Assembly: GCF_016889705.1 (NCBI RefSeq)
Contig: NZ_CP069526.1
Span: forward strand, 9,390,001-9,454,000
Reading direction: 5' to 3'
Length of the DNA: 64,000 nucleotides
Origin: Amycolatopsis sp. FDAARGOS 1241
GTDB taxonomy: Bacteria > Actinomycetota > Actinomycetes > Mycobacteriales > Pseudonocardiaceae
Position 1 is the stretch's first letter. Each line of letters opens with the position of its first letter. The position numbers and the translations under genes are program-made. A model generated the notes under the pieces. The model was not told where the DNA came from. It did not search any database and saw only the letters and a list, made by a program, of their open reading frames with translations. Positions 53,441 through 57,478 of this stretch are shown one piece after another.

Positions 53441-54265
53441 TCAGAACTGGGGCAGGGACTCGCCTTGCACCGCTTCGATGTCCAGCTCCACCTTCACCGT
53501 GGTGCCGATCGCGGCGACACCCGCTCGGACCATCGCGCTGTAGTTGATCGCGAAGTCGTTGCGGTGCAGCTGCGTTTCGGCGTGGAACGCGGCGCGCACG
53601 CCGCCCCACGGGTCGGGGCCGTGGCCCTGGTAGCGCAGGTCGAGCTCCACCTGGCGGCGTTCGCCGTGCAGCGTCAGCTCACCCAGCAGCACCCACGTGT
53701 CCGTGCCGCGCTGCGACAGGCCCGTGCTCTCGAACGTGATGAGCGGGTAGGCCTCCACGTCCAGGAACTCGGCCGAGCGCAGGTGGTCGTCGCGCATCTT
53801 GATGCCGGTCTCGATGCTGCCCGCCTTGATCTCGGCGCGCACCGTCGAACGCTCCACCGGGCGCGCGATCTCGATGCGCCCGCCGACGTCGGGGAACCGC
53901 ACCTTGATGCTCGCGATGCCCATGTGCCGCGCGGTGGCGACCACCGACGTGTGCACCGGGTCGATCGTCCACGGCCCGGCCGGCGGCAGCTCGACGGCTT
54001 CGGCCACCGGGGCCAGGGCGATGTCGCCCAGGAGCCCGGCGCCGTCGGAGCCGATCTGCACCGTGCGCGCGGTCGGGGTGTACCCCGGCGCCGTGATCAC
54101 GGCGGTGTAGACGCCCGGGGGCAGCGGGTCGGTGGCCACTGCCCCCTTCGCGTCGGTGATCTGACGGGCGACCTGGCGGCCGTTGAGGTCGGTCACCGTG
54201 AGCACGGCGTTCTCCACCGGCCAGCCGCCATTGGCTCGCAGCTGTCCTCGCAGGCCCGCGCTCAT
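53441..54265 (-). CDS. YceI family lipocalin-like protein with N-terminal CarboxypepD_reg-like domain
   Basis: 274 aa. Residues 1-85 form a beta-sandwich like those on the exporter (LRGQLRANGGWPVENAVLTV, then PPGVYTAVITAPGYTPT). Residues about 92-274 are a YceI domain: WTIDPVHTSVVATARHMGIA, KVRFPDVGG, SIETGIKMRDDHLRSAEFLD, ELTLHGERRQVELDLRY and the end AIGTTVKVELDIEA. YceI proteins are lipocalin-like barrels that bind isoprenoid or other lipids. There is no signal peptide, so it is likely cytoplasmic. ATG at 54265 overlaps the exporter stop (ATGA), so it is coupled to the exporter. Confidence 0.85.
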   Translation of the reverse strand: MSAGLRGQLRANGGWPVENAVLTVTDLNGRQVARQITDAKGAVATDPLPPGVYTAVITAPGYTPTARTVQIGSDGAGLLGDIALAPVAEAVELPPAGPWTIDPVHTSVVATARHMGIASIKVRFPDVGGRIEIARPVERSTVRAEIKAGSIETGIKMRDDHLRSAEFLDVEAYPLITFESTGLSQRGTDTWVLLGELTLHGERRQVELDLRYQGHGPDPWGGVRAAFHAETQLHRNDFAINYSAMVRAGVAAIGTTVKVELDIEAVQGESLPQF

Positions 54266-56886
54266 GAGCGGTCGACCAGCTCGTCGAGTGCCTGGTCGTA
54301 GCTCAGGCGCACGTCGTGCTCGGCCTCGCCGTCCGACAGCGTCACCTGGCTGGTGGCCGGCGGGTAACCGCTCGCCACCACGGTGTACGCGCCGACCGGC
54401 AGGTCGCTCACCACGTACCGGCCCTCGCTGTCGGTGCGGGCGACCGCCGCGACGTTGCCGTTCGCGTCGAGCACGGTGATCCGCGCGTCCGGCACGATCC
54501 GCTCGCCCTCGGTGCGTGCGACGCCTTGCAACAGCACGGCACCGGCCAGCTCGACGTCGTGGCGCAGCACGCCGCTGTCGGGCACGGTCAGGGTGACCGC
54601 CACCGGGCGGTAGTGCGGACCGCTGGCGACCAGCGTGTACTGGCCCGCGCCGACCCCGCTGAAGGTGTAGACACCGTCGTCGGCCGTGATGAAGGCGCCG
54701 TTGACCTCACCGCGCGAGTCGGTGAGCGTCACGGTCGCGTTGGCCAGCGGGGAACCGATCCCCACCGACCGCACGACACCGGTCAGCTCGCCCGAGCCGG
54801 TGAGCGTCACGTCGAGCTTCGCCGGCCCGCCGCCGACGACCACGCTGGAGGCCTGCGGCTGGTGGCCGGGTGCGGCCACGATCAGCACGTACGTGCCCGG
54901 GCCCTGCGTCGGCACCGAGTAGCTGCCGTCGCCGTTGCCGGTCGCTCGCGCGACCTGGCGGCCCTGCTGGTCGATCAGGGTCAGCGCGGCGGCGCTGACG
55001 TGGCTGCCGTCCTGCCGGCGCACGTGGCCGGTCACCGGGGGACCGCCCGCGCCCAGCGGCACATCGACACCCGCACCCGCGACCGAGTTCGTGATCGGCA
55101 TGGGCAGCGAGCCCGAAACCGCCTCCGGGTCGCCGTGACCGTTGTTGCTCATCGCGTGCCTTCCACCCACGCCGGCGAGAACGGGTTCCCGCGGCTTTTG
55201 TTCCTCGAACAGCGAGCCCGTGGTGGCCGCGTCGTCGATGGTGGTCGCCATCGGCTCGTCGTTCGCTTCGAGCAGCGCCTCGCCGCCCTCCATCGCCGCG
55301 GCCGCCGGGGAGGTGCCCGCGAGCGGGATCTCCTTCATGAACAGCAGCACGATCGTCGCGAGCAGCGACACCGCGGCGGCGACGTAGAACACCGTGGTGA
55401 TCGACTCGGTGAACCCGACGAGGATCGGCGTCCGGACCGCCGGCGGCAGCGTCTGGATGACGCTGGTGTTGCTCGAGAGACCGGCCAGCTGCCCACCGGC
55501 TCCGGCCGGCGCGTGCCCGCCGAAGGCCTTGGTGATGTTGCCCGGCAGCACGTTGAACAGGATGGTCAGGAAGACCGCGACACCCGCCGTACCACCGATC
55601 TGGCGGAAGAACGTCGCCGACGCGGTCGAGACACCGATGTCCTTGCGTGGCCCGGCGTTCTGCACCGCGATGACGAGCGTCTGCATGCACTGGCCGAGGC
55701 CGAGACCGATCACGGCGGCGGCGACCATCGGCAGCCACAGCTTCGAGTCGTACTTCACCTGGGCGAAGATGACCGCGCCACCGGCGATCAGCAGCGTGCC
55801 GATGATCGGGAAAGCCTTGTAGCGCCCGGTCTTCGACGTGATCCGGCCCGACAGGATCGAACCGGTCATGATGCCGGCCATCAGCGGCAGCATCAGCAGC
55901 CCCGACGCGGTCGGCGAGTAACCCAGCACCACCTGGTAGTACTGCGGGATCATCGTGATCGCGCCGAACATCGCGACACCGACGATGACACCACCGACGA
56001 TCGCGACGGTGAACGTCGAGTTCTTGAACAGCCGCAGCGGAATCAGCGCCGCGTCCTTCATCAGCTTCTCGACGACGATGAAGAGGATCACGCCGAAGCC
56101 GCCGATGGCGTAGCAGATGATGGACTTGGTGTCGCCCCAGCCCCACTTCTGGCCCTGCTCGGCCACGATGAGGAACGGCACCACCGCGATGACCATGGCC
56201 AGCGCGCCCCACCAGTCGATCCGGTGGTTCTGGCGGCTGTGCGGCACGTTGAGGACCCGGCCCACCACGAGGAACGCGATGACCCCGATGGGCACGTTGA
56301 TCAGGAAGACCCAGCGCCAGCCGGCGATGCCGGCGAGGCTGTCGAAGCCCGCGAAGAACCCGCCCAGAACCGGGCCGATCACCGTGGACAGGCCGAACAC
56401 GGCCAGGAAGTAACCCTGGTACCGGGCCCGCTGGCGGGGCGGCACGATGTCGCCGATGATCGTCAGGGCCAGCGACATCAGACCGCCGGCGCCGATGCCT
56501 TGCACGGCGCGGAAAGCGGCCAGTTCGTACATCGACTGCGAGAAGGTCGAAGCCAGTGAACCGGCGACGAAGATGGCGATCGCCGCGAGGTAGAACGGCT
56601 TGCGGCCGTAGATGTCGGAGAGCTTGCCGTAGATCGGCGTCGCGATGGTCGACGTGATCAGGTACGCGGTGGTCACCCACGCCTGCAGGTCGAAGCCCTG
56701 CAGGTCGTTCGCGATCCGGACGATCGACGTGCTCACGATCGTCTGGTCGAGCGCGGCGAGGAACATGCCGCACATCAGGCCGCTGATGATCGTGAGGATC
56801 TGGCGGTGACTCAGCCCCAGTGCGTCAGCGCCGGCAGCGGGTTGTCCCACCCGCTGCTGAGGTTCTTTCTGGACGGTGGACGTCAT
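54262..56886 (-). CDS. DHA2 (14-helix) MFS exporter with three C-terminal CarboxypepD_reg-like domains
   Basis: 874 aa. Residues 1-540 are a DHA2 exporter: LDQTIVSTSIVRIANDL in helix 1, GKLSDIYGRK motif A, GPVLGGFFAG in helix 5, and 14 helices in all. A linker of about 70 residues follows. Three beta-sandwich domains make up the C-terminus: GHVRRQDGSHVSAAALTL onward, LTGVVRSVGIGSPLANATVT onward, and LQGVARTEGERIVPDARITV onward, each with a G-x-Y-x-x-x-G/P-V-G/P-x-G-x-Y-T-x-x-V/A-S-G pattern. They are the same kind as in the exporter at 22241. Because 14-helix exporters have a cytoplasmic C-terminus, these domains should face the cytosol. Start ATG at 56886, 7 bp after MarR. Confidence 0.88.
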   Translation of the reverse strand: MTSTVQKEPQQRVGQPAAGADALGLSHRQILTIISGLMCGMFLAALDQTIVSTSIVRIANDLQGFDLQAWVTTAYLITSTIATPIYGKLSDIYGRKPFYLAAIAIFVAGSLASTFSQSMYELAAFRAVQGIGAGGLMSLALTIIGDIVPPRQRARYQGYFLAVFGLSTVIGPVLGGFFAGFDSLAGIAGWRWVFLINVPIGVIAFLVVGRVLNVPHSRQNHRIDWWGALAMVIAVVPFLIVAEQGQKWGWGDTKSIICYAIGGFGVILFIVVEKLMKDAALIPLRLFKNSTFTVAIVGGVIVGVAMFGAITMIPQYYQVVLGYSPTASGLLMLPLMAGIMTGSILSGRITSKTGRYKAFPIIGTLLIAGGAVIFAQVKYDSKLWLPMVAAAVIGLGLGQCMQTLVIAVQNAGPRKDIGVSTASATFFRQIGGTAGVAVFLTILFNVLPGNITKAFGGHAPAGAGGQLAGLSSNTSVIQTLPPAVRTPILVGFTESITTVFYVAAAVSLLATIVLLFMKEIPLAGTSPAAAAMEGGEALLEANDEPMATTIDDAATTGSLFEEQKPREPVLAGVGGRHAMSNNGHGDPEAVSGSLPMPITNSVAGAGVDVPLGAGGPPVTGHVRRQDGSHVSAAALTLIDQQGRQVARATGNGDGSYSVPTQGPGTYVLIVAAPGHQPQASSVVVGGGPAKLDVTLTGSGELTGVVRSVGIGSPLANATVTLTDSRGEVNGAFITADDGVYTFSGVGAGQYTLVASGPHYRPVAVTLTVPDSGVLRHDVELAGAVLLQGVARTEGERIVPDARITVLDANGNVAAVARTDSEGRYVVSDLPVGAYTVVASGYPPATSQVTLSDGEAEHDVRLSYDQALDELVDRS

Positions 56887-56893
56887 CTTCTTC

Positions 56894-57412: not shown

Positions 57413-57457
57413 TCGGTGGATCTTTCTCGCGGTGAACGAACCGGTTGGTTGGCGGCT

Positions 57458-57478
57458 GCAACTAGTTGCCTAAAGCAA
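57458..57478. promoter_or_regulatory. Candidate MarR operator 2
   Basis: GCAACTAGTTGC (57458-57469) is a perfect palindrome and overlaps TAGTTGCCTAAAGCAA (57463-57478). The latter is 13/16 identical to the site at 21660-21675 upstream of the other MarR gene. Confidence 0.7.

Follow-up and report, generated by a model that had tools for sequence, protein, structure and literature searches.

The tail of a DHA2 exporter and a two-domain YceI protein look like one evolving unit in actinobacterial marR operons

A minus-strand operon of Amycolatopsis sp. FDAARGOS 1241, reaching from a palindrome to a terminator, encodes a MarR-type regulator, an 874-amino-acid (aa) exporter of the DHA2 type of the major facilitator superfamily (MFS), and a 274-aa protein in which a CarboxypepD_reg domain precedes a YceI domain. 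It lies in the window studied here, by which we mean the whole analysed stretch of 64,000 nucleotides (nt) of contig NZ_CP069526.1. The exporter itself ends in a tail of three CarboxypepD_reg domains. We show here that many soil actinobacteria encode the regulator, the tailed pump and the two-domain YceI protein next to one another, and that the tail is kept beside YceI when the pump is exchanged or missing, which suggests that tail and YceI function together. Judged from sequences and structure models, the two look like one evolving unit, a putative cytosolic adaptor on a disordered leash of about 90 residues.

Results

Loci were chosen rather than drawn at random and comprise the best 80 of 151 matches in named genomes together with picked sites at the family, order and class level. 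From 140 classified loci, seven repeats and seven rows of a paralogous YceI clade were taken off, leaving 126 distinct loci; the paralog rows, at first recognised by eye, are all split off together by one starred branch in a tree built later. A tail is encoded within 600 nt upstream of YceI in 115 of the 126 distinct loci (115/133 with the paralogs included), it is fused to an MFS core in 106 of these 115, and 102 of the 106 fusion loci encode a marR on that strand, which lies upstream in 98 of them and only downstream in 4. The triad, proposed earlier from a reading of the letters of this DNA (hereafter the sequence-only reading), is hence conserved across genera, with the full set, marR on the same strand, in 102 of 126 loci. 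Among the named Amycolatopsis loci, marR-MFS-tail-YceI stands in 37 of 38, the remaining one being cut by a contig end. The gene order recurs in Amycolatopsis, Prauserella, Nocardia and Streptomyces and is therefore not a matter of chance. The Streptomyces set consists of L190, assigned by sequence identity (its exporter tail is 100% identical to S. griseorubiginosus proteins), and of the other loci of code f33/g117, which were taken as Streptomyces. Contig ends cut L027, L056, L078 and L084, and the pump lies in broken frames in L180 (scored as no tail) and L157 (scored as fusion). As controls served loci with single-domain YceI from the same searches, 20 in number, from which L245 was dropped for want of a YceI match; in the remaining 19 there was neither a tail (0/19) nor an MFS gene directly upstream (0/19), with an MFS match elsewhere in two loci and a weak MarR match on the opposite strand in two. 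Of 121 loci having an adjacent tail, 78 show ATGA or GTGA in frame at the stop of the tail open reading frame (ORF). No fusion of tail and YceI in a single chain was found in three sets of fetched loci, nor among the 120 matches listed of 644 in one search and the 120 listed of 4388 in another; apparent fusions of this kind were long overlapping frames.

The pump has been exchanged while tail and YceI stayed. Pumps were labelled as types A, B and C, and trees were built with a quick method that gave long-branch warnings (among them for L064, L146, L160 and L170), also in the MFS tree. The tree of MFS cores divides an A+C side from a B side, both starred, and places Nocardia-A in the former and Nocardia-B in the latter; one B-labelled row, L161, falls outside the B side. 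In the tail tree and in the YceI tree, all Nocardia loci belong to one starred clade. Nocardia-A (n=9) and Nocardia-B (n=7) share on average 36.2% identity in the MFS core, 67.2% in the tail and 71.7% in YceI; for Nocardia-B and Streptomyces (n=11) the respective values are 52.0%, 40.7% and 52.6%. The operator follows the pump: of 56 A-type loci, the window included, 55 have an exact core CAACTAGTTG ahead of marR, and none of 10 B-type loci, all of which are Nocardia, has it; as background, the core is exact in 32 of 5000 random 250-nt stretches drawn from the same loci, real sites included. Within Nocardia, marR distances track those of MFS (0.78) more than those of YceI (0.40). With operator, regulator and MFS core differing and tail and YceI alike, operator, marR and core look like one cassette, tail and YceI like another. 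In the MFS tree the five C-type pumps group together, yet their label changes five times in each of the tail and YceI trees. Across 71 loci, distances correlate at 0.84 for YceI and tail, at 0.44 for YceI and MFS and at 0.56 for tail and MFS, the last two being parts of one chain; in A-type loci alone, YceI-tail reaches 0.88 against 0.48 for tail-MFS. The B-type Nocardia loci L052, L055, L059, L067 and L071 carry a repeated GTTGATTAGCGAAAG where A-type loci have the palindrome, possibly an operator of another MarR.

The tail can also stand beside yceI without a pump. In seven loci (L064 of Prauserella rugosa, L146, L155, L159, L160, L170 and L172) a free three-domain tail protein, a chain without MFS, adjoins yceI; Pfam was run on four of the seven, and the loci L146 and L172 contain an MFS gene at another place. 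The free-tail label changes six times on the tail tree and on the YceI tree; starred branches force five and six of these changes, respectively, and several of the rows concerned are long. Conversely, four loci assigned to Amycolatopsis by their nearest relatives (L206-L209) lack yceI, and there the tail has two domains, not three, with dedA and ppox conserved as neighbours. This two-domain pattern is listed in seven genomes of the genus, four of which were fetched, with Pfam run on L208 only. Among the ORFs that follow the exporter in L208, L210-L218, L220, L224 and L225, no gene common to all was found that could be a soluble partner replacing YceI.

The operon of the window comprises the following features.

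57458-57469, upstream of marR: candidate MarR operator, perfect palindrome GCAACTAGTTGC
57412-56894, minus strand: marR, regulator of 172 aa (ORF call; Pfam MarR PF01047, 56.7 bits, over cut-off)
56886-54262, minus strand: DHA2-type MFS exporter, 874 aa (ORF; PF07690, MFS_1, and three PF13620, each over cut-off; TIGR00711; C-terminal tail predicted cytosolic)
54262-54265, minus strand: ATGA shared by the exporter stop and the start of yceI (ORF coordinates and sequence)
54265-53441, minus strand: yceI, 274 aa (ORF; no signal peptide seen by hydropathy)
53419-53384, minus strand: intrinsic terminator-like hairpin at the operon end, before dedA (16 pairs; fold z = -4.4)

The gap between marR and the exporter gene measures 7 nt, and ORF calls, Pfam and TIGR00711 confirm the operon of marR, three-domain exporter and N-domain YceI with its 4-bp overlap as first read from the letters. 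As expected of an autoregulated MarR operon, a palindromic element is present at the marR promoter; this predicted operator, GCAACTAGTTGC, occurs in only one place within the 9.8-Mb genome. The interval from palindrome to terminator holds marR, exporter and yceI only, and no gene for a membrane fusion protein of the EmrAB-TolC type lies in it. DedA-like genes stand on both flanks, at 52580-53248 and at 59641-60354, with a VTT domain confirmed by Pfam in the former. In named loci, dedA follows yceI in 38 of 38 cases in Amycolatopsis and in 5 of 6 in Prauserella (exception L037). DedA as a constant member of the operon was nevertheless rejected: the terminator lies between yceI and dedA here, and no dedA was found in the Nocardia and class-level loci. 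Elsewhere in the window, at 18787-21425, two neighbouring genes named by eye as globin-FAD (flavohaemoglobin-like) were seen.

Exporter and YceI protein divide into the following parts.

55327-56886, minus strand: MFS core, residues 1-520, with 14 membrane helices counted by us on the AlphaFold model
55048-55311, minus strand: disordered linker, residues 526-613, with a predicted local distance difference test score (pLDDT) < 50 in the AlphaFold model
54301-55047, minus strand: tail of three CarboxypepD_reg/transthyretin-like domains, D1 (residues 615-695), D2 (697-780) and D3 (784-861) (Pfam and model; limits from model strands)
54008-54265, minus strand: N-terminal CarboxypepD_reg domain of YceI, residues 1-86 (PF13620 match 5-76, over cut-off; closest to D1)
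53462-53977, minus strand: lipocalin-like YceI domain, residues 97-268 (PF04264 match 99-265, over cut-off)

The exporter passes the NCBIfam model TIGR00711 (DHA2/EmrB) with 255.3 bits against a cut-off of 230.2 bits, and the models that score highest, Tcr3 and OtrB, both stay far below their own cut-offs. A hydropathy scan gave 13 segments and missed the second helix. With this helix included, cytosolic-side loops hold 16 K/R and 2 D/E, the outer loops 8 K/R and 6 D/E, a sum that excludes loops 1-2 and 2-3. Because the K/R excess sits in the would-be cytosolic loops, the tail is predicted to lie inside, and the helix count on the model, together with these charges, gives 14 helices with both ends inside, as for DHA2 pumps. 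The cytoplasmic C-terminus assumed in the sequence-only reading is thus also what loop charges and the AlphaFold model predict. In that model the beta strands of the three tail domains span residues 615-861. The solved pumps nearest to the exporter include EfpA, a potential lipid transporter (PMC11961569), and the mycobacterial triacylglyceride transporter 8pnl (PMC10576003).

By both its PF04264 domain and its fold, the YceI protein belongs to the YceI family of bacterial lipocalins, and structure comparison of the model identifies its N-domain as transthyretin-like. This N-domain is nearest to tail domain D1 in 51 of 71 loci, to D2 in 15 and to D3 in 5. Pocket-fold matches include 1wub, a polyisoprenoid-binding protein, and 7bwl, an antibiotic sequester, which is among the best. 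Some solved relatives are named as periplasmic or secreted proteins. In line with what had been noticed at the outset, no signal peptide was seen in the window YceI or in 15 relatives: a hydrophobic N-terminus is absent from the former by hydropathy and from the latter on inspection by eye, and the first 40 residues of the window protein hold no lipobox-like N-terminus. A signal-peptide route for YceI was rejected on these N-termini. Among the free tail proteins, six of seven lack a hydrophobic N-terminus by eye, and the start of the seventh (L155) is doubtful.

Discussion

We tentatively favour, with a confidence that stays somewhat below even, a self-regulated module that expels a hydrophobic compound, in which the leash-held tail would act as adaptor, YceI as the usual cargo carrier and the pump as an interchangeable export step. 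MarR would sit on GCAACTAGTTGC until the compound releases it. The pocket of YceI would hold this compound, which may be a polyisoprenoid, a quinone or a drug, in the cytosol, and the N-domain of YceI would pack on the tail, probably on D1. Filled YceI would thereby be kept at the inner mouth of the pump via the flexible leash, and the pump would then remove the compound. The tail-YceI pair may further be an adaptor that serves more than one pump type. This extension, a portable cytosolic device for substrate capture by MFS exporters that has been coupled to several DHA2 pumps while regulator and operator changed along with them, appears possible, though on the unlikely side.

Several observations weigh against the efflux module. 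In Prauserella and its relatives marR-yceI stands alone (L109, L110, L113, L115 and L081/L111, the last two seemingly one genome), and the six named Nocardia loci L046-L051 have a gene for a two-domain YceI without marR and without a pump or tail match in the stretch examined. The seven free-tail loci, devoid of a tail-fused pump, speak against strict capture and export. Tails also occur apart from YceI: 27 of the 61 best tail matches in 200 genomes of the family have no exporter-clade YceI within 600 nt, and the window itself has a second marR (21692-22231) paired with a DHA2 pump (22241-24352) with two CarboxypepD_reg domains and no YceI. In L222 and L223, a DHA2 pump of another type, which carries three tail domains itself, is encoded ahead of a distinct protein made of three tail domains, again with no YceI, so that these loci hold another sort of pair of pump and soluble tail; the mechanical ORFs of tailed pump and tail protein overlap by 4 nt in L222:2420-5793. 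A second clade of two-domain YceI proteins has an adjacent tail in 0 of 7 cases. From tails without YceI (the 27 of 61, the second window pump, L222 and L223) and a paralogous YceI without tail it follows that the CarboxypepD_reg domain is used beyond YceI. The pump exchange has its own weak points. Without Nocardia-B, the correlations for YceI-tail and tail-MFS are equal (0.82 each), so that the gap between them rests mainly on the Nocardia-B exchange; B-type loci show the reverse order (tail-MFS 0.83, YceI-tail 0.77), and within Nocardia alone the YceI-tail correlation is only 0.45. The exchange may have happened only once, and a recombination breakpoint lying upstream could yield the same pattern without any selection on tail and YceI. 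Two further pumps fall on the B side of the MFS tree, the second one of the window with its two tail domains and one from elsewhere in the genome that has no tail; tails have therefore been gained or lost among pumps. Moreover, if operator, marR and pump change jointly while YceI stays, YceI may not be adapted to what any single pump transports.

Three further features were seen at these loci. GTTGC-N5-GCAAC half sites lie upstream of the second marR, at 21662-21676. In the same genome, at about 8.018 Mb, a paralog (L163:6874-7731) encodes a two-domain CarboxypepD_reg-YceI protein with no pump or tail match adjacent. In L046:6988-8819, a gene named by eye as AraC-like lies just upstream of the two-domain YceI on the same strand.

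Tailed pumps without YceI (27/61), like YceI found without pump or tail, would be expected if the genes of the operon were co-regulated and otherwise uncoupled. The pump would then export a drug, and YceI would bind up this or a different hydrophobic compound inside the cell, as a cytosolic counterpart of BcnA; the tail would serve oligomerisation or regulation of the pump, and the shared domain would be an old duplication only. Antibiotic binding by YceI proteins is known (PMC5350466), 7bwl ranks among the best fold matches, and in other actinobacteria yceI has been found beside genes for sulfonamide-degrading monooxygenases (PMC6868719). This explanation does not readily account for tail and YceI being alike between Nocardia groups with different pumps, for the free tail proteins adjoining yceI in seven loci or for the shorter tail in the four yceI-less loci fetched from the genus of the window, and we regard it as rather unlikely. 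The same seven free-tail loci, together with the tail being carried by different pump types, would fit a stand-alone complex of tail and YceI in the cytosol that handles an isoprenoid, quinone or lipid, the DHA2 fusion being mainly a membrane anchor and the pump working independently. An MFS fusion kept in 106 of 126 loci, with marR in 102 of these, is hard to square with a mere anchor, which makes such a complex improbable in our view. That YceI acts outside the membrane through an unrecognised export route, in the manner of several known YceI proteins with a periplasmic or secreted location and of the solved relatives bearing such names, is very improbable, given that neither the window YceI and 15 relatives nor six of the seven free tail proteins (the start of L155 being doubtful) have a hydrophobic N-terminus.

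Taken as a whole, the interpretation given in the sequence-only reading, capture of a hydrophobic compound by YceI and docking on the exporter through matching beta domains, is partly supported. None of the three outcomes that it had named as refuting was observed, given the N-termini of YceI, the predicted inside position of the exporter C-terminus and the conservation of the triad. In favour of the matching domains are the proximity of the N-domain to D1 (51/71) and the persistence of the tail beside YceI when the pump differs or is missing; the many tailed pumps without YceI speak against strict capture and export. The statement that no system of this composition has been described agrees with the titles and abstract openings of the open-licence literature, in which, term counts included, no account of marR, DHA2-tail and YceI turned up. 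Among the closest parallels is the mycobacterial Rv1410-LprG operon, which likewise combines an MFS exporter with a partner that has a lipid pocket (PMC10576003), and 8pnl is near the window pump. There, growth defects persisted when only the transporter (with one exception) or only the lipoprotein was supplied for complementation, and functional shuffling spoke against a contact that is strong and specific (PMC10576003). LprG, unlike the window YceI with its lack of a signal or lipobox-like N-terminus, is a lipoprotein located at the outer surface of the inner membrane, and neither a domain shared with the pump nor C-terminal beta domains are mentioned for Rv1410-LprG in the accessible part (PMC10576003). 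Another parallel is BcnA and BcnB, in which the YceI fold binds antibiotics (PMC5350466); the structures of BcnA, BcnB and PA0423 match the model of the window YceI. In contrast, BcnA is secreted and its gene is generally linked to a cytochrome b561 gene (PMC5350466, PMC9113575). A gene of this kind, known from the BcnA-LcoA system, is absent from the window operon, which holds marR, exporter and yceI only. The window YceI differs further in having no signal peptide seen, an extra second domain, and MarR and a DHA2 pump as neighbours. The matched solved chains of the BcnA/BcnB type are about one domain long, while the window protein has two, and the match to TT1927b (1wub), the polyisoprenoid-binding YceI protein of Thermus thermophilus with its 178-residue chain, covers the YceI domain only. 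The exporter resembles the DHA2 drug pumps of the EmrB, EfpA, QacA and OtrB/Tcr3 families in being a DHA2 pump that passes TIGR00711, but the listed stretches matched by drug-pump models end before its tail. EmrR and OtrR are examples of MarR-type control of DHA2 drug pumps.

MFS exporters are commonly assumed to catch their substrate unaided, from the membrane or the cytosol. If the capture role of YceI is true, YceI would correspond, in the cytosol and for export, to the substrate-binding protein that importers use. A widespread operon of actinobacteria whose soluble lipocalin-like protein stays with the cytosolic tail of the pump through evolution would add a cytosolic capture subunit to MFS export. 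With loci free of a pump and with the pump exchanged in others, the central claim can be tested with two soluble proteins and does not call for a membrane assay. The operon is present in antibiotic-producing genera such as Amycolatopsis and Streptomyces, and in Nocardia.

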